A stretch of DNA of 64,000 nucleotides from Campylobacteraceae bacterium (lineage in GTDB: Bacteria; Campylobacterota; Campylobacteria; Campylobacterales; Arcobacteraceae), in the NCBI GenBank assembly GCA_013215945.1, contig JABSOM010000015.1:1-64000 (forward strand). Direction: 5' to 3'. Under the pieces are notes generated by a model that did no database searches, was not told where the DNA came from, and worked only from the letters and a program-made list of their open reading frames with translations. Shown here one piece after another: positions 27,172 through 35,421 of this stretch. Made by a program: the position numbers and the translations under genes. How positions within the stretch are numbered: position 1 is the stretch's first letter; each line of letters opens with the position of its first letter.

Positions 27172-28122
27172 ATGAGCAATAAAAAAATTGGTATTTGGAT
27201 GTATAAGAATTCAGGTGGTGAGTTAATTGAAAAAAAAATATGCAAAAAACTAAAAGACAGAAATATTGACACTTTAGTAAATTTGAACCTAAGAGAAGCA
27301 TTAGCCAAAAATGGACATATTTTACATAAAGGCATAAAACTAGATAAATTAGATTTATTTTTCTCTTACAATGCAAGTGAACAAACTCAATATCAAATGT
27401 ATTTATACAAAGCACTTAACAGAGTTATTCCTATGATTAATTCATTTGAAGCTTTTGAATTAAGTGAAGATAAATTTCATACTTCTTTTATACTAAGAAA
27501 AAATAAAATTAAAACTGCAGATTATAAATTATGCCATAGAGATGATACTCATCATTTAACCTCCATCATTAAACAATGGTCAAAAATGGTGTATAAACCA
27601 ACAGATGCTTGGGGAGGCAGAGGGCTTGCAAAAATTGATTCAAGTGAATCACTTGCTATGCTTATGCCTTTTTTAAATCAAATGGATTTAAGGTACTTTT
27701 ATGTTGAAAAATTTATTGATTATGATAATACAGATTATAGAATCGATATTGTTGATGGAAAATTTGTTGCTTGTTATGGACGAAAAGCCTCTTCTAATGA
27801 TTGGAGAACCAATATAAGCAGTGGTGGAAGTGTATTTTTAAGAGAAGCAAATGATGAAGTTGTTGAACTTGCTTTAAACGCGACAAAAGCAATAGGACTT
27901 GAGATAGCAGGTGTAGATATCATTTATGACAGAAAAAAAGAAGAGTATATTGTTTTAGAAATCAATGGAGTACCTGCATTTGCCACACCAGAACAAGAAA
28001 AAATGGGTCTAAATTTTAATGATAAAAAAATTGATTTAATTGTTGACTTAATTCTTAAAAAAGTTTCCAAGAAAAATAATGATTTAAATAAACCAATATA
28101 TAAAACACAAGTCGTAGCGTAA
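27172..28122 (+). CDS. RimK-like ATP-grasp ligase, copy 1
   Basis: 316 aa, soluble. An N-terminal pre-ATP-grasp domain covers about 1-100 and the ATP-grasp fold about 101-295. Visible ligands: Lys142 in MVYKPTD, a glycine loop GGRG (148-151), VEKFI (Glu179), Arg190/Asp192 in DYRIDIV, Arg212/Asn214 in WRTN, and Mg2+ ligands Asp249, Glu263 and Asn265 (LEINGVP). This is the RimK/LysX/glutathione-synthetase branch, whose members join an amino acid to a carboxylate through an acyl phosphate. The substrate is unknown. The protein is about three-quarters identical, without gaps over about 297 residues, to the one encoded at 29414. It has its own promoter and is separated from the following operon by 183 bases with a likely terminator. 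Confidence 0.87.
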   Translation: MSNKKIGIWMYKNSGGELIEKKICKKLKDRNIDTLVNLNLREALAKNGHILHKGIKLDKLDLFFSYNASEQTQYQMYLYKALNRVIPMINSFEAFELSEDKFHTSFILRKNKIKTADYKLCHRDDTHHLTSIIKQWSKMVYKPTDAWGGRGLAKIDSSESLAMLMPFLNQMDLRYFYVEKFIDYDNTDYRIDIVDGKFVACYGRKASSNDWRTNISSGGSVFLREANDEVVELALNATKAIGLEIAGVDIIYDRKKEEYIVLEINGVPAFATPEQEKMGLNFNDKKIDLIVDLILKKVSKKNNDLNKPIYKTQVVA

Positions 28123-28305
28123 AAACACCCAATAAAAACAATAAAAGAATATTGTTATTTTCATATACAAAGTTATAGCCAATTTTAAATATTAATATTT
28201 CTTTTTATTAAATAACTTAATTTATTACTTAAGAATAATATATTAAATTATATAGTAGTATTATATTTTAAACGTCAAAATGAATAATTGCAAGAAAGGA
28301 GAATC
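28123..28305 (+). other. Spacer between ATP-grasp copy 1 and the M20-led operon
   Basis: No gene. An imperfect stem, ACAAT (about 28139-28143) with ATTGT (about 28152-28156), followed by TATTTTC, may attenuate transcription after copy 1. Further on are several TATA-like hexamers (for example around 28250-28275), one of which probably starts transcription of the M20 gene. The rest is simple AT sequence. Confidence 0.35.
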
Positions 28306-29403
28306 ATGAAATATATACACGATCTTGAAAAAATTATAACTATCAATTCTTATACAAAAAATAAAGAAGGTGTTGATAAAGTAGGTGAAATAATGTCCTT
28401 ATGGCTTGAAGATATAGGTTTTGAAACTACAGTATATGAAAGAGACTTAATTGGTAATCATTTGTTGCATACAACTTCTAAAAAAGCCAATTTACCAAAG
28501 ATTCTGCTTTTAGGCCATAACGATACTGTTTTCCCGCCCAATACCTTTGAAGGTTTTAATAAAGATGAGCAATGGATATATGGGCCAGGAGTTTGTGATA
28601 TGAAAGGTGGAAATATAGTTGCTTTGCAAGCACTAAGAAATATCTATGAAACAAACAGAGCTATACACAATATTGATTTTTTACTGGTATCTGATGAAGA
28701 GTCAGGAAGTGATGATTCAAAAAATTTAAGCTCAAGTATTGCAAAAAACTACGATTACTGTTTTGTTTTTGAAGCTGCGGGAATTAAAGAAGAAGTAGTT
28801 AATGCACGTAAAGGTGTAGGTACGTTTACTATTGATATAGAAGGTTTGGCAGCACATGCTGGAAATAACTATGAAAAAGGAGTTGATGCCAATTTAGAGG
28901 CTTCTTATAAACTGCAAGAACTGGTAAAACTTACAAACCTAAAAAAAGGTACTACTTGTAATGTTGGAAAAATAAAAGGAGGTATTGGTGCCAATACTAT
29001 TTCTCCAAAAGCCAGCATTACTCTGGAGATAAGATACACCCAAAATGAAGAGAAGAACAGACTATTAAGTGCTTTACATGATATTTGTAATACTTCTTAT
29101 GTAGAAGGTTCAAAAGCAGTTTTAAGTGGCGCTATACAAAGAGATGTAATGGAGGCTAATGATAAACAAGAATTGTTAATTACTAAAATAGAGGCTATTT
29201 CTGGTGAAAAATTATTTTGCGAAAAAAGAGGTGGAGTAAGTGATGCAAATATAATTGCATCACAAGGGACTACTACCTTAGATGGTTTTGGCCCTTTTGG
29301 TGATGGGGACCATACAGTAAAAGAAAGAGCCTGTTTAAAATCATTTGAAAAACGAATAAATTTAATGACACAAATATTAAGTCATTTTCAAGTTAGTAAG
29401 TAA
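28306..29403 (+). CDS. M20-family metallopeptidase (carboxypeptidase G2/ArgE-like)
   Basis: 365 aa from the ATG at 28306, placed by the ribosome site AAAGGAG; an in-frame TTG six codons earlier covers that site. The two-zinc set appears intact: His71 (LGHNDT), Asp98 (VCDMKGG), general base Glu131 with Glu132 (SDEES), Glu156 (FEAAG) and the C-terminal His in GDGDHTVKE. The dimerisation-domain His184 (AAHAGN) is also present. Family members remove C-terminal glutamate or N-acyl groups from small substrates. No signal peptide, so it acts in the cytosol. It starts the tight operon with ATP-grasp copy 2, the ATP-grasp-HhH protein and the M14 enzyme, so it probably trims or deprotects a product of the ligases. 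That last point is inference. Confidence 0.88.
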   Translation: MKYIHDLEKIITINSYTKNKEGVDKVGEIMSLWLEDIGFETTVYERDLIGNHLLHTTSKKANLPKILLLGHNDTVFPPNTFEGFNKDEQWIYGPGVCDMKGGNIVALQALRNIYETNRAIHNIDFLLVSDEESGSDDSKNLSSSIAKNYDYCFVFEAAGIKEEVVNARKGVGTFTIDIEGLAAHAGNNYEKGVDANLEASYKLQELVKLTNLKKGTTCNVGKIKGGIGANTISPKASITLEIRYTQNEEKNRLLSALHDICNTSYVEGSKAVLSGAIQRDVMEANDKQELLITKIEAISGEKLFCEKRGGVSDANIIASQGTTTLDGFGPFGDGDHTVKERACLKSFEKRINLMTQILSHFQVSK

Positions 29404-29413
29404 AGGAATTATT

Positions 29414-30358
29414 ATGGACAGAAAAAAAATAGCTATGTGGATGTATTCTAATGGTGGTGGAGATATTATTCAAAATAAGCTTATAGATAAACTTAAAGAA
29501 AGATATATAGATGTTTTAAGCGATATTAATCTAAGAGAAGCCATTGCTAAGAATGGACATATAATCCATAATGGCATAAAACTTGATAAATTAGATTTAA
29601 TGTTTTCTTATAATGCGGGAGAGCAAACACAATATCAACTGTATATATATAAAGCACTAAACAATGTTATTCCAATGATTAATGAATACAATTCGTTTGA
29701 ACTAAGCGAAGATAAATTTCAAACCGCTTTTTTATTAAGACACAATGGGGTGCAAACAGCAGATTATAAACTTTGTCACAGAGATGATACCCATCATCTT
29801 AAATCTATTATGAAAAAATGGAATAAAATGGTGTATAAACCCACAGATGGATGGGGAGGTAGAGGACTTACTAAAATTGACTCACAAGAAACACTCGACA
29901 TGTTAATGCCTTTTTTAAATCAAATGGATTTACGCTATTTTTATGTTGAAAAATTTATTGATTATGATAATACGGATTATAGGGTAGATATTGTTAATGG
30001 TGAGTTTGTAGGGTGTTATGGAAGGAAAGCGGGTGGAAATGACTGGAGAACCAATATTACAAGTGGAGGAAGTGTATTTAATAGAGAAGCAAATGATGAG
30101 GTAGTAGCTTTGGCTAAAAAAGCTACTTTGGTTACAGGCTTAGATATTGCAGGTGTTGATATTATTTATGACAGAGAAAAAGAAGAATATATTGTGTTAG
30201 AAGTCAATGGTATTCCTGCTTTTGCTACACCTGAGCAAGAAAAAATGGGTTTAAATTTTAATGACAAAAAAATTGATTTAATAGTTGATTTAATTGAGAA
30301 AAAAACAATTAAAGTTGAAAAAGAACGAAGAAAAAGAAAAAATAGAAGATTAAAATAA
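29414..30358 (+). CDS. RimK-like ATP-grasp ligase, copy 2, with basic tail
   Basis: 314 aa, co-linear with copy 1: Lys142, GGRG 148-151, Glu179, Arg190/Asp192, Asp249, Glu263 and Asn265 are all conserved, and long stretches such as FELSEDKF, DYKLCHRDDTHHL and PFLNQMDLRYFYVEKFIDYD are identical. Differences cluster in the first 40 residues and at positions around 92-94, 207-208 and 236-241. The C-terminus differs completely: residues about 300-314 form a strongly basic tail (ERRKRKNRRLK). It lies 10 bases after the M20 stop with an AAAGGA site. The pair arose by duplication and the copies may use different acceptors. Confidence 0.87.
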   Translation: MDRKKIAMWMYSNGGGDIIQNKLIDKLKERYIDVLSDINLREAIAKNGHIIHNGIKLDKLDLMFSYNAGEQTQYQLYIYKALNNVIPMINEYNSFELSEDKFQTAFLLRHNGVQTADYKLCHRDDTHHLKSIMKKWNKMVYKPTDGWGGRGLTKIDSQETLDMLMPFLNQMDLRYFYVEKFIDYDNTDYRVDIVNGEFVGCYGRKAGGNDWRTNITSGGSVFNREANDEVVALAKKATLVTGLDIAGVDIIYDREKEEYIVLEVNGIPAFATPEQEKMGLNFNDKKIDLIVDLIEKKTIKVEKERRKRKNRRLK

Positions 30359-30364
30359 GGAAAA

Positions 30365-31876
30365 ATGATGAAAAAGTTACCAACAATAGGTTTTTTATAT
30401 ATGGATTACGTGCTAAGATTTTTTGATTATTCAAATTTTAAGGCTTGGCCTGAAAAAATTGAAGAAGTTACCTATCATTGGAAAAATGACAAAAAACGTT
30501 TCATTAAAGAAGTGAAAAGAAAGAAAATTAATATTTTAATTGGGAATATTCCCGCAACTGCCTACGATACTTTTGTTCAAATAGCCAAAGAATTGTCAGA
30601 TGTGCGTTTTGTTCCCTCTTTAGAAACACAGTTTCCTAATAAATCAAAAGAGAATGTAACGTTATTTTGTAAAAAGTACGATTTAGCTATTCCAAAAACA
30701 GAAATCTTTTATGATGAAAAAAAAGCTTTTGAGTATTTTAGAAAAAGTGCAACATATCCTCAGATAATAAAAAAATCCTATGGCCCTTCAAATTATGGAG
30801 GTTATTTTGTACATAAAGTGAATAATGTAAAAGAAGCTCTTTCTTTAGTTAAAGAAAAAAAATACTCTCCTGTTTATACGCAGAATGCTATTGATTTAAA
30901 GTACTCTGGAGATTTAAGAATAATGTTAATTGGACATAAGCCTGTTTGTGCTTTTTGGAGATTTTCAGGAGAAGGAGAATGGATAACCAACACTTCTCAA
31001 GGGGGTTCAATGTCTTATGAAAATGTTCCCATGTCTTCACTTGAATTAGCCGTTAAAGCATCAAAAGCTGCAAAAGCGGAGTATTGGGCTTGTGATATTG
31101 CAATTGATGCTAAAACAGATGAACCATATATTTTAGAATGCGCTACTGCTTTTGCTGCTTTTCCTTATATTAGAGATTGGATTTGTCAATATTTAATGTG
31201 GGATTTTTCACAAGGAAAATTTCCTAAACCTCATGTGCCTTTATTTTCTTGGGAAGAACTTGGCAAGATAAATCCTGATTTATTAAGAACTATGAGACAT
31301 ATAGGATTTTCTGCTTATAAACCATCTGCTGATGGAGAATGGTATATAAATGACAAAGAAGACAATTTCGACATGGAACGAACGCTTGAAAGCGTAGAAA
31401 GTGATCTTCCTGCTTCTATTAAACCAGAAGATTTGCCAATTGCCAAGGAACTGCTAAAAAATACAAAAGAATCAAAAGAAGTGTTTTTCACTAAAATTAA
31501 TTTAAATACAGCAAACTTGACAGATATCATGACACTTTATGCAATGGAAGAAGATTTAGCAATAGAAATTTTGGAATATCAAAAAGACAATATTATTACT
31601 GATCCTTCTGATTTACTTGATTTAGAAGCTATTGATGCACAATTGATTTCTTCTTGGAATGATGATTTTGAAGATATGCGCTTTAATTTAAATGATGCCA
31701 GTAAAAAAACCTTGACAAAAATCAAAGGTATTGGCTCAAAATTGGCAGCTATAATTTTAAATGAAAAAGAAAAGTTAGGTAAGTTTACTTCACTTGATGA
31801 TCTTAAACATATTGCGGGAATTGGAAAAAATAAATTTTCGGAACTTAAATCAAGATTTAAGATAGAGGATAAATAA
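30365..31876 (+). CDS. ATP-grasp enzyme fused to C-terminal ComEA-type helix-hairpin-helix repeats
   Basis: 503 aa. Residues about 1-95 are a divergent pre-ATP-grasp domain. Residues 96-290 are ATP-grasp with Lys136/Lys137 (IIKKSYG), SNYGGYF, Asp183/Arg185 (GDLRIML), Asn209 (NTSQGG) and metal ligands Asp244 and Glu258; the usual third ligand Asn is replaced (LECATA). A linker is followed by two ComEA-like units, 378-432 (INLNTANLTDIM, DPSDLLDL) and 439-500 (FNLNDASKKTLTKIKGIGSKLAAII, IAGIGKNKFSELK). Such units bind double-stranded DNA in ComEA and UvrC but also occur in protein-binding roles. No membrane segment. The stop is directly followed by the M14 start codon. I know of no standard family with this fusion. 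Confidence 0.82.
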   Translation: MMKKLPTIGFLYMDYVLRFFDYSNFKAWPEKIEEVTYHWKNDKKRFIKEVKRKKINILIGNIPATAYDTFVQIAKELSDVRFVPSLETQFPNKSKENVTLFCKKYDLAIPKTEIFYDEKKAFEYFRKSATYPQIIKKSYGPSNYGGYFVHKVNNVKEALSLVKEKKYSPVYTQNAIDLKYSGDLRIMLIGHKPVCAFWRFSGEGEWITNTSQGGSMSYENVPMSSLELAVKASKAAKAEYWACDIAIDAKTDEPYILECATAFAAFPYIRDWICQYLMWDFSQGKFPKPHVPLFSWEELGKINPDLLRTMRHIGFSAYKPSADGEWYINDKEDNFDMERTLESVESDLPASIKPEDLPIAKELLKNTKESKEVFFTKINLNTANLTDIMTLYAMEEDLAIEILEYQKDNIITDPSDLLDLEAIDAQLISSWNDDFEDMRFNLNDASKKTLTKIKGIGSKLAAIILNEKEKLGKFTSLDDLKHIAGIGKNKFSELKSRFKIEDK

Positions 31877-34465
31877 TTGAAACAACTTTATAGATCATAT
31901 GCTCAATCCACTGAGATATTTACAAAGTATGCAAAAGATTATGAAAAACACTTTACACTTGAAACTATCGGAAAAACATGGGAAAAAAGAGATATTAATT
32001 TAATTACCATATCAAGCGATATAAAAAATGCGCATAAAAAACCTGCTCTGTTTTTCACAGGAACTATTCATGCAAGAGAGTGGGTAGGACATGAATTAGC
32101 AATTGAGTTTACTAAATACATCCTAGAAAACTTAGAACATGATTTAATGCTGCAAGAATATTTAGAGAAAGCAACTATTTATATGGTTCCTTGTGCAAAT
32201 CCTGATGGTTATGAATATTCTAGAAATCATTTTTCTTTTTGGAGAAAAAACAGAAGAGTTAATGCTGATGGAACTTTTGGTGTGGATTTAAACAGAAATT
32301 TTCCCATTGGTTTTATTTCCAGTACAAAAACGAACTCCAATATTTATGGAGGTCCTAATCCTTTCTCTGAACCCGAATCGCAAGCCTTAAGAGACTTTGT
32401 TTTAGCACATAAGAATATAACCATTGCGCTTGATTACCATTCCCAAGGAAATGTTTTTTTCCCTGCTCATGATTTTAGGCATGAAGATACTCTAGATACA
32501 AGTGATATGAATATATTATGTGCAAATATGGCTGAAGAGATTAGAAAAATATCTGGCAGAGAATATGGGATTCATCAAGGAAAACCACCTGCTAAACTAA
32601 TTTCTGGAAGTGGAAGAGAATTTTATTATTCAAAAGGTATTATTTCAAGTGTGGTAGAAGTAGGAACACGAAATATAAGCGATTATATGGAAGATATGAA
32701 CGAAAACTTAAGAGAACATATTCCCGCATTATTAAGTGCGGTAAAAGAAGTGCCTAATTATAAAAAAGATTCGAATGTACTTAGAGTTAAAAGTTTTGAA
32801 GTAAGTGATATTGGATCTTCTCATGTTGATTTAATCTGGGAATATAAAAAAGATGAGAACATATATTTTGAAGTGTATAGAAGCAATGAAAATAAAAAGT
32901 TTTGTATGGATGCTAACTTACTTGCACAAACACAAAGCCATAGTTTTAGCGATATAAATCTGGAATCAAACAAAGATTATTTTTACAATATTCGTGCAGT
33001 AAACAAAAAAACAAAAGTTAAATCACCTTTTTTCCCTCAAATTAGAGTAAAAACTTCTTTGGAATTTGATGAGTTTTCGAGAACTTATTACGCCAGCGCA
33101 GCAACAACAGGTTATGTATCTGAAAACTTAAAAAACAATGACAAACACTTTGGTATTAATTCCTTATTTGTTGGTATTGATGAGAATAAAGGCATATCTT
33201 ATGCTCTAATTACTATTAATGTTAAAACATTGGCAGCTAATGCCATTATTAAATCGGCTAGTTTTAATCTTTATCCTATTAATAGAGTTTCTACTACTAT
33301 TGAAAAATATGGTGAATGGAATGTAGGAATTGTTAATCAAGATACTATGGGTGATATTACTAATTTTGATGATGTTAATGATATGGAAATTATATCTTAT
33401 ATTGGTCAAGCTACACAATCTTCCCAATTAACGCAAGGTATATGGAGAAGCTGGCACTTGTCCGGAATTGAGTGCCTTGCTTTGAAAAAATTTATAAAAA
33501 ATGATCAAATTGTATTACGAGTAGAAGGTCCCAAAGAGCTTAAAATTGCACGAAACAAACAAATGATGCAATGGGATATTGGCTATGGGAAATTTGGTTT
33601 TGGATTAACATACAGACCAAGAATAGAACTTACCTATCATGTAGATACTAATATTACTACGCTGTATCCAAAAGAAGTACATACGATATCTAATAAAAGT
33701 ATTTTAAATAATGTTGCCACCTGTGGTTTTGATGATCAAGGTAAAAAGATATATTCATTTTTTGAATTTAATTTATCTTCTTTGCCTGCTTATGATTATA
33801 CAATGATTACAAAGGCTTATTTTGAATTAAATTCAAAAGCAATTTACATAAAAGACGATATTCGCTTTCATTTAGAATTTATAGATGAAAATACAGGTAA
33901 AAGTTATAAATCAATTAGTAAGAGAGAAATTATTCAAAACATTGGTTACGATGTTAGTGCAAATGAACTCAAAAACAATCAAACTCAGTATTTTATGTTT
34001 GATTCTTTTGCACAAATAGAACTTAATAAAAAATTAAAAAACAAAGTAGATGTCTCTTTTATTTTAAAAGCCACTTCTTCAAAAAAGTTTATTAAAAACA
34101 AAACAATTTCATGGGAACTTTTAAACAATGATTTAGCACCCAAACTTATTATTGAACATATTACAAAAAGAAGATTTCCTATAAAAGAAGTAGAAAATGC
34201 AAAAATAATTAATGATAACGGAAAAGTGAAGATTATTTGGGAAAATCCAAAAGATAAAGAACTAAAAGGAGTTTTAGTTATAAAGAATCCATACAGAGCA
34301 CCCCTGTCACAGGTTGATGGACAAAAACTTTATGCAGGAAATGACGAGTTTACTTATGATGAGTTTGGTTCAAAGGATATTTCAAAATACTATGCTATTT
34401 TTACATATGATGATGTACCCAACTATTCAAAACCTGTTTTTATAAGATACGAAGCAAAAAAATAA
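31877..34465 (+). CDS. M14 zinc carboxypeptidase with FN3 and DNRLRE-like domains
   Basis: 862 aa from a TTG start that abuts the upstream stop; GAGGAT is the ribosome site. Residues about 1-292 are an M14 (carboxypeptidase A-like) domain: zinc ligands His65 and Glu68 (HARE) and His188 (YHSQ), substrate-binding Arg127, Asn139/Arg140 (DLNRNF) and catalytic Glu261 (VVEVGT). After it come an FN3-like domain (about 305-395), two beta-rich DNRLRE-like segments (about 400-590 and 600-780) and a C-terminal FN3-like piece. Those accessory domains normally sit on secreted proteins, yet there is no signal peptide, matching the cytosolic ligases. The expected activity is removal of C-terminal amino acids; the accessory domains may hold the target. 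A terminator follows. Confidence 0.85.
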   Translation: MKQLYRSYAQSTEIFTKYAKDYEKHFTLETIGKTWEKRDINLITISSDIKNAHKKPALFFTGTIHAREWVGHELAIEFTKYILENLEHDLMLQEYLEKATIYMVPCANPDGYEYSRNHFSFWRKNRRVNADGTFGVDLNRNFPIGFISSTKTNSNIYGGPNPFSEPESQALRDFVLAHKNITIALDYHSQGNVFFPAHDFRHEDTLDTSDMNILCANMAEEIRKISGREYGIHQGKPPAKLISGSGREFYYSKGIISSVVEVGTRNISDYMEDMNENLREHIPALLSAVKEVPNYKKDSNVLRVKSFEVSDIGSSHVDLIWEYKKDENIYFEVYRSNENKKFCMDANLLAQTQSHSFSDINLESNKDYFYNIRAVNKKTKVKSPFFPQIRVKTSLEFDEFSRTYYASAATTGYVSENLKNNDKHFGINSLFVGIDENKGISYALITINVKTLAANAIIKSASFNLYPINRVSTTIEKYGEWNVGIVNQDTMGDITNFDDVNDMEIISYIGQATQSSQLTQGIWRSWHLSGIECLALKKFIKNDQIVLRVEGPKELKIARNKQMMQWDIGYGKFGFGLTYRPRIELTYHVDTNITTLYPKEVHTISNKSILNNVATCGFDDQGKKIYSFFEFNLSSLPAYDYTMITKAYFELNSKAIYIKDDIRFHLEFIDENTGKSYKSISKREIIQNIGYDVSANELKNNQTQYFMFDSFAQIELNKKLKNKVDVSFILKATSSKKFIKNKTISWELLNNDLAPKLIIEHITKRRFPIKEVENAKIINDNGKVKIIWENPKDKELKGVLVIKNPYRAPLSQVDGQKLYAGNDEFTYDEFGSKDISKYYAIFTYDDVPNYSKPVFIRYEAKK

Positions 34466-34497: not shown

Positions 34498-35421
34498 TTA
34501 TTTACACATAGCGTAGTGATCGCCAAGTTTATCGTATAAATAATCAAAAGACACATCTTGCATTTTTTCCAGAATAGAAACCATTACAACATTGTCTTCC
34601 TCTCCATTCCAAATTTTTATATAAGAACCTTCTTTATACCCGTTGTCTTGTCTGAATTTGTTTAAACAGTTTTTTCCAATATAGAGTTTTTGTAACCATT
34701 TAAAAGAAAGTCCAGATATTTTGCAGGCTCTAAAAAATTGGTCAATAAATCGCTCAATTCCAGAGAACGAAGGAATATTTCCTGTTTGAATAGCAATGGC
34801 GATATAAGAAAGTTTTTCAGCCTCAGTTACCATTATTTTTGGATCTATTTCTTCATTGGCTTCATATATACAATGAGTATTAACCAAAGAAACAGCTCTA
34901 GGTACATTTGTTTCTTGCAAAATATAAGACATTAAAAAATGCCAAATATCAACTAATTCGACATGAATATTATTCATATCTGGTTTTGCATTAATATTTT
35001 TCCAATGTTTCCATGGAGTTGAGTCAATGAGTTCTGCTACTTCCATATGAATACATCTTAACCAATTGATTTCTTTTCCATGTTTATTAAGACCTAATTC
35101 CCAATTAGGACCATTGGTTGAATCATTTAATTGTTTTTGTAATAAAAACATTTCTTCTAGTTTGTGAGGAAAGCTTGAGGCTTCTTCTAATAAAGAAGCA
35201 AGGGGTAAACATTCTTCGACTAAGTTATCTAAAGCACCATTGCTGGGAAGCTCAATATCACCCTTTAACAAGTGTACAATCAATGAAATAGTGTATGGAA
35301 TTTCATCTTTTTCTTCCCAAACTAAAACATCTGAAGATGTTTTTCCAACGTATTTAGCAAAATCTTCAATACTTACAAACCCTAAAGATTTACTAACAAC
35401 TTTTAATTCTTCATATAACAA
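34498..35421 (-). CDS. dut: Dimeric all-alpha dUTPase with N-terminal helix-turn-helix-like extension
   Basis: 307 aa. The region from about residue 88 is the Campylobacter/phage-type all-alpha NTP pyrophosphohydrolase: 'LLQKQLNDSTNG', Glu127/Glu130 in HMEVAELIDSTPWKHWK and Glu155/Asp158 in VELVDIWHFLMS are the magnesium-binding sets. It hydrolyses dUTP to dUMP and PPi, keeping uracil out of DNA. The first 85 residues are extra relative to the roughly 230-aa C. jejuni enzyme and read like a Cro/C1-type helix-turn-helix ('SIEDFAKYVGKTSSDVLVWEE'), possibly an autoregulatory or scaffold domain. Monocistronic. Confidence 0.85.
   Translation of the reverse strand: MLYEELKVVSKSLGFVSIEDFAKYVGKTSSDVLVWEEKDEIPYTISLIVHLLKGDIELPSNGALDNLVEECLPLASLLEEASSFPHKLEEMFLLQKQLNDSTNGPNWELGLNKHGKEINWLRCIHMEVAELIDSTPWKHWKNINAKPDMNNIHVELVDIWHFLMSYILQETNVPRAVSLVNTHCIYEANEEIDPKIMVTEAEKLSYIAIAIQTGNIPSFSGIERFIDQFFRACKISGLSFKWLQKLYIGKNCLNKFRQDNGYKEGSYIKIWNGEEDNVVMVSILEKMQDVSFDYLYDKLGDHYAMCK

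Follow-up and report, generated by a model that had tools for sequence, protein, structure and literature searches.

Known ATP-grasp enzymes of the RimK/LysX/MptN branch attach an amino acid, in nearly all cases glutamate, by its amino group to a carboxylate of the acceptor (for RimK, PMC11957791). The principle of matching a ligase with an eraser is known from bacterial RimK/RimB and from eukaryotic TTLL/CCP. The present analysis concerns a 64,000-nucleotide stretch of DNA from a Campylobacteraceae bacterium (assembly GCA_013215945.1, contig JABSOM010000015.1, positions 1 to 64,000), referred to here as the window, and a cassette of four genes within it. The cassette encodes an M20 metallopeptidase, a RimK-like ligase (Lig; LigB in the window), a second ATP-grasp protein with a C-terminal helix-hairpin-helix (HhH) region (Lig-HHH) and an M14 carboxypeptidase, and is preceded by an extra ligase gene, LigA. 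This combination looks to be undescribed: in a literature whose coverage was incomplete, no published description was found of the M20 and M14 eraser pair, of a ligase that is fused to an HhH region and lacks a metal ligand, or of the taxonomic range.

Several characterized systems share parts of this arrangement. Eukaryotic TTLL/CCP likewise employs several ATP-grasp writers and M14 erasers acting on glutamate tails, but the cassette M14 is of the A/B type (CPA/CPO-like), the cassette ligases belong to the RimK branch and not to the TTL type, and a tubulin-like target is not known. The trio for the osmolyte NAGGN (N-acetylglutaminylglutamine amide) consists of an ATP-grasp/GNAT protein, an amidotransferase and an M42 peptidase. 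It likewise combines an ATP-grasp peptide ligase and a peptidase in one operon, whereas the cassette has no GNAT, amidotransferase or M42 gene. The LysX/ArgX-LysW pathway also unites a LysX-fold ligase with an M20 hydrolase; the cassette adds M14 and is without LysZ, LysY and LysJ. In Pseudomonas, RimK/RimB (RimABK) likewise joins a RimK-branch glutamate ligase to a dedicated glutamate eraser (PMC11957791), a known bacterial pair that had been overlooked in an earlier, sequence-only reading of the locus. RimB, however, is a retropepsin-like aspartic protease, whereas the putative cassette erasers are M20 and M14 zinc exopeptidases accompanying two ligases, one of them fused to an HhH region; the RimB family (PF05618) was not found in the genome. 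The RloABC operon of Pseudomonas aeruginosa also pairs a cytosolic ATP-grasp protein with a poly-glutamate-cleaving enzyme (PMC12239564), but its secreted retropepsins and inactive transmembrane transglutaminase have no counterparts in the cassette. In the literature covered, the only bacterial proteins named as polyglutamylated are ribosomal protein S6 (RpsF), with RimB as its known eraser, and a Legionella protein (PMC12239564). Human carboxypeptidase O (CPO) likewise has the M14 fold with arginine at position 255, usually without a prodomain (PMC9925722), unlike which the cassette M14 is bacterial, lacks a signal peptide, carries some 570 residues of beta-sandwich domains and has Tyr248 replaced.

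M20, the RimK-like ligase, Lig-HHH and M14 almost certainly form a real, conserved four-gene system. Loci were mapped from the order Campylobacterales (40), from GTDB contigs (80) and from one Photobacterium record, and a locus was considered testable when its contig was long enough to be judged (68 among 81 contigs). The order M20-Lig-LigHHH-M14 was found complete in 64 of the 68 testable loci, with M20 sometimes divergent. Carriers are sulfur-cycle bacteria, mostly Campylobacterota, and comprise Arcobacteraceae, Sulfurimonas, Sulfurovum, Hydrogenimonas, Nitratifractor, Thiomicrorhabdus, Desulfuromonadales, Desulfuromusa and Photobacterium; Lig-HHH relatives are encoded in 342 stretches of GTDB r220. 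The flanking genes vary by family, being argG and dUTPase in Arcobacteraceae and trmD/rimM/rplS (these three named by eye from sequence) in Sulfurimonas relatives, and the order of the cassette is therefore not mere inherited background. The genes are not scattered singly, an outcome that would have refuted the earlier reading; their order and co-occurrence are conserved across families and phyla. Of the five genes grouped in that reading, LigA is not conserved outside the genus, so that the supposed unit of three ATP-grasp enzymes is reduced to two conserved ligases and a lineage-specific paralogue. None of the five genes matched PADLOC defence models, and a search of phage records for an origin of the cassette gave no match.

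The four genes also co-occur across genomes. Among 299 genomes of the order, 81 contain all four, 206 none and 12 some, with single-gene tallies of 88 for Lig-HHH, 88 for M14, 85 for Lig and 87 for M20. Pairwise Jaccard indices among the four genes are 0.90-0.96, without correction for phylogeny. In seven genomes (G053, G066, G079, G011, G016, G126 and G290), all four genes are present yet unlinked, at least one lying on another contig or at a distance, which indicates that function, and not position alone, ties them together. Genome G076 retains only a broken Lig-HHH remnant, the other cassette genes being missing. Co-occurrence, unlinked cases included, is the strongest evidence for joint action of the four proteins. 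Several of the 12 genomes with partial sets are fragmented assemblies. Such sets include Lig with M20, M14 only, M20 only, and M14 with M20 (in G009 (L174), G176 (L175), G037 (L176) and G001, respectively), and may trace the sequence in which genes were lost, or result from fragmentation of the assemblies. Within the genus of the window genome, two genomes (G300 and G301) lack a full cassette M14, so the set has been lost or gained there.

Two further arrangements of Lig-HHH were observed. Lone Lig-HHH genes of some Sulfurimonas relatives (L051, L060, L142, L145 and L149) stand directly after an EF-P-like gene and in some cases are followed by dnaE, which is probably a single inherited arrangement. 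In Arcobacter sp. 31_11_sub10_T18, the intact cassette is followed by a divergent second ligase and a 145-residue Lig-HHH fragment (L082:12232-13731), perhaps a decaying second copy.

LigA, LigB and Lig-HHH all score above the cut-off for the Pfam RimK family (PF08443), and the genome contains no other RimK-family gene of comparable strength. The metal ligands E263 and N265 of LigB are invariant among its relatives. Among NCBIfam models, LigB ranks highest with MptN (137 bits), followed by rimK_fam (126 bits) and LysX (100 bits), each below its cut-off; for rimK_fam (TIGR00768), LigA and LigB reach 126-131 bits, just under the cut-off of 143.4. All 43 ligases scanned match the MptN, rimK_fam and LysX families, with MptN best and above RimK and CofF; the best-scoring families are thus ones that add glutamate. 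The models for glutathione synthase and the S6 ligase (PRK10446) give only 46-56 bits, with 46-49 bits for glutathione synthase (cut-off 299) and 47-51 bits for the S6 ligase equivalog (cut-off 331). The ligases therefore lie outside the glutathione family, membership of which would also have counted against the earlier reading; across the whole genome, the best glutathione synthase score is 48.9 bits against the same cut-off of 299.

Lig-HHH is strongly conserved over its first 330 residues and keeps Asp244 and Glu258. The residues E258 and A260 are invariant in 111 of 111 relatives, and Ala260 occupies the position of the asparagine that serves as the second metal ligand in RimK/LysX enzymes, which bears out the earlier remark that the third ligase lacks one metal ligand. 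An additional loss, that of the catalytic arginine of the RxN motif, was considered and dropped, as Thermus LysX shares the WITNT sequence. The AlphaFold model of Lig-HHH gives ArgX-LysW, LysX and RimK as the best Foldseek matches. The sequence of its C-terminal region varies, but most members are HhH-like there, with matches to HHH_5 in 32 and HHH_3 in 25 of 47, and a 381-residue version of the protein has no HhH match.

The best PDB relative of the M20 protein is carboxypeptidase G2 (CPG2; E 6e-29), an enzyme that frees C-terminal glutamate from folates. The two-metal site and the equivalents of CPG2 His229, Asn275 and Arg288 are conserved in 90 relatives. Against the PRK06133 model, the protein scores 195 bits, with a cut-off of 349.

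In the M14 protein, the HAREW, DLNRN and DYHS motifs and the catalytic glutamate are invariant in 83 relatives, corresponding to the zinc site HxxE...H and the equivalents of Arg145 and Glu270. With these residues kept across relatives, the active sites are intact as had been claimed, apart from the one ligand in Lig-HHH. The Foldseek matches ranking highest for the M14 model are CPA2, CPO and CPA4. Residue 255 sets the C-terminal specificity of M14 enzymes, being hydrophobic in carboxypeptidase A (CPA), aspartate in carboxypeptidase B (CPB) and arginine in the acidic-specific CPO, and frog CPO with Arg255 cleaves Glu-Glu and not Phe-Ala (PMC9925722). By alignment, Arg247 of the cassette enzyme falls at CPA position 255, opposite Ile255 of CPA4 and Asp255 of CPB. 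This position is arginine in 82 of the 83 relatives and lysine in the remaining one, with arginine also in Photobacterium, whereas four unrelated bacterial M14 proteins have T, I, D and D, the alignment of the last two being uncertain. The cassette M14 thus probably has an acidic-C-terminal (CPO-type) S1' specificity, as predicted from the arginine at 255. The catalytic domain is followed by an FN3-like domain, two DNRLRE-like domains and a final FN3-like domain, the beta domains extending up to residue 862 (AlphaFold pLDDT, the predicted local distance difference test, 86); fn3 is matched by 40 of 48 relatives, and the NCBIfam DNRLRE match is weak. The protein lacks a signal peptide and a prodomain, its N-terminus being the start of the catalytic domain, as in the relatives. 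A signal peptide is excluded because an in-frame stop lies directly upstream, in agreement with the earlier claim.

Considered together, M20-Lig-LigHHH-M14 may be one cytoplasmic system that reversibly adds and removes glutamate, or an acidic amino acid like it. This is the likeliest reading and is given about an even chance of being correct, with better odds for add-and-remove chemistry as such once the free-oligopeptide and cofactor versions discussed below are included. Of the add-and-remove idea in the sequence-only reading, what stands is a single system, with conserved order and tight co-occurrence, and not the three-ligase unit; the glutamate version is more specific because M14 carries an acidic-type S1' arginine. 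We infer the directions of the enzymes and their division of labour as follows. Lig would use ATP to activate an acceptor carboxylate as an acyl phosphate, to which the amino group of glutamate would then be joined, at the carboxyl end or a side-chain carboxyl of an acceptor encoded outside the cassette. Lig-HHH has lost one metal ligand but otherwise retains its nucleotide site; it could act as a second ligase whose chemistry is changed, or else as a scaffold on which the acceptor docks by way of the HhH region. M14 would trim C-terminal acidic residues, and the CPG2-like M20 would remove the last or branch-point glutamate.

Several points weigh against this reading. The predicted glutamate donor derives solely from the ligase family and the peptidase specificity, and the glutamate specificity of M20 would follow from distant kinship with CPG2, its His/Asn/Arg lid residues being typical of M20A exopeptidases generally (PMC6271292). 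In most cassette M14 proteins, the tyrosine corresponding to CPA Tyr248 is swapped for lysine or histidine, and the beta-sandwich tail resembles domains that are usually extracellular. The co-occurrence statistics ignore phylogeny. Moreover, no conserved small open reading frame (ORF) or additional gene travels with the cassette. In the gaps of the loci compared, no shared precursor or acceptor ORF of at least 15 residues was found, local matches being limited to close relatives; a graspetide or other ATP-grasp system for ribosomally synthesized and post-translationally modified peptides was rejected, as the gaps of the examined loci contain no conserved small precursor ORF. When the genes flanking about 140 loci were clustered in search of a constant acceptor, the outcome was only over-general response-regulator-like proteins and lineage-specific housekeeping neighbours, namely argG, trmD/rimM/rplS, dUTPase and a hexapeptide-repeat protein resembling gamma-carbonic anhydrase.

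What does the cassette act on? The ligases might synthesize a soluble, acidic product, an oligopeptide or poly-alpha-glutamate, serving as an osmolyte, reserve or signal and recycled by the carboxypeptidases, and no protein target would be needed. This possibility is doubtful but has real weight: RimK makes free poly-alpha-glutamate both in vitro and in vivo (PMC11957791), the cassette has no acceptor gene, a pair of exopeptidases fits complete recycling, and the carriers belong largely to marine or vent lineages, with habitat judged from names only. However, the 570-residue beta tail of M14 and the HhH region found in Lig-HHH point to docking on a macromolecule, the cassette has no exporter or regulator, and NAGGN synthetase is not in the genome (best score 19 bits, cut-off 569). 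A rather unlikely proposal, with a macromolecule other than S6 as the target, is a RimB-independent writer and eraser of (poly)glutamylation, in which the HhH region would guide Lig-HHH to a nucleic-acid-bound target. By analogy with TTLL/CCP on tubulin, the two ligases and two zinc carboxypeptidases could then divide among themselves initiation, elongation, trimming and branch-point removal. Modification of the S6 tail itself, with M14 and M20 in the place of RimB, would suit a RimK-branch ligase accompanied by glutamate-removing enzymes in a genome where RimB was not found, but the S6 protein of this genome ends in ...CEVALKKAAK, with no acidic tail, and the RimK equivalog score is far below the cut-off of 331, making this explanation very improbable.

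Addition of glutamate to a carboxylated cofactor, whether pterin-like, folate-like or of another kind, with trimming by M20 and M14, would accord with MptN, a tetrahydromethanopterin ligase, as the best model for every ligase scanned and with a folate-glutamate hydrolase as the nearest structure to M20. It is nonetheless improbable, given that the MptN equivalog scores (137-142 bits) are far under the cut-off of 350, that the neighbourhood contains no cofactor gene, and that the large M14 tail and the HhH region are left unexplained. The LysX/ArgX-LysW amino-group-carrier pathway, with M20 as a LysK/ArgE-like release enzyme, was suggested by the similarity of the Lig-HHH model to ArgX-LysW/Glu, by LysX and M20 being a known pair, and by argG just upstream in Arcobacteraceae, a hint of arginine synthesis. 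But LysW (TIGR01206) was not found in the genome, the other Lys genes are absent from the cassette as noted above, and argG as a neighbour is largely restricted to Arcobacteraceae, with unrelated genes such as trmD/rplS in its place elsewhere, so that this pathway is highly unlikely. The least credible view is that adjacent genes of unrelated function make up no system at all: Arcobacteraceae also keep the flanking genes, which makes local synteny alone weak evidence, but the cassette remains intact amid many unrelated flanks and in other phyla, co-occurrence holds when the genes are unlinked, and the genome without the other genes, G076, retains just a broken Lig-HHH.

LigA is a genus-level paralogue, and three ligases are a feature of the genus. 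It is 74% identical to LigB, consistent with its earlier description as a near-copy, and is missing from other cassettes, barring independent extra copies. The genome carrying the window (3.24 Mb) has Arcobacter sp. NORP36 as its nearest relative among those compared, and LigA groups with LigB and with the matching pair of NORP36. Compared with NORP36, LigB is 99.7% identical with a synonymous divergence (dS) of 0.11, whereas LigA is 78% identical with a dS of 0.95 (27172-28122 versus L076:4815-5765). The dS values of argG, Lig-HHH and M14 are 0.13-0.15 and that of M20 is somewhat raised at 0.33, and the other cassette genes are 94-100% identical between the window genome and the L076 genome. 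Because its dS far exceeds those of its neighbours between the two genomes, LigA was probably exchanged horizontally or replaced as a single gene. All genes are under purifying selection, with an omega of 0.15 for LigA. Tandem ligases were also found in a Sulfurimonas metagenome-assembled genome (L111:6576-8480); the two belong to separate branches of the Lig tree, so that additional ligases have arisen on more than one independent occasion.

The five ORFs and their gaps are present exactly as first described, and Pfam matches (RimK in three of three ligases, Peptidase_M20 and M20_dimer, HHH_3, and Peptidase_M14 with E 2e-56) support the families assigned to them. The gaps are 10 bases between M20 and LigB, 6 between LigB and Lig-HHH and 0 between Lig-HHH and M14. 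LigA is separated from M20 by an AT-rich gap of 183 bases and is thus not part of the tight operon. The M20 gene begins at the ATG at 28306, just downstream of AAGGAG, with the mechanical ORF opening at a TTG at 28288. The M14 gene has a TTG start, preceded by GAGG, immediately after the Lig-HHH stop. Downstream, on the reverse strand (34498-35421), a dUTPase_2 protein with about 86 extra N-terminal residues before its dUTPase domain is encoded; its position beside the cassette is conserved in Arcobacteraceae.

Table 1. Features of the cassette and of the adjoining ligase gene in the window
Feature	Position	Strand	Basis and remarks
LigA	27172..28122	+	extra LigB paralogue, outside the conserved unit
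M20 ribosome-binding site (AAGGAG) with its spacer; lies where the cassette operon starts	28296..28305	+	direct reading of the sequence
M20A metallopeptidase, CPG2-like; predicted eraser	28306..29403	+	Pfam M20 and M20_dimer; best PDB relative CPG2; cassette gene 1
LigB, ATP-grasp ligase of the RimK/LysX/MptN branch; predicted writer	29414..30358	+	Pfam RimK; conserved cassette ligase
Lig-HHH, ATP-grasp core (1-300) and C-terminal helix-hairpin-helix region	30365..31876	+	Pfam RimK and HHH_3
M14 carboxypeptidase (1-295) and beta domains; predicted acidic-specific eraser	31877..34465	+	Pfam M14

Overall, if the add-and-remove reading is correct, a four-gene module present in hundreds of genomes, with a different pair of erasers, would widen the reversible glutamate chemistry of bacteria. 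If instead the product is a free metabolite, the cassette would reveal a novel oligo-glutamate compound in organisms dominant at vents and in marine redox zones.

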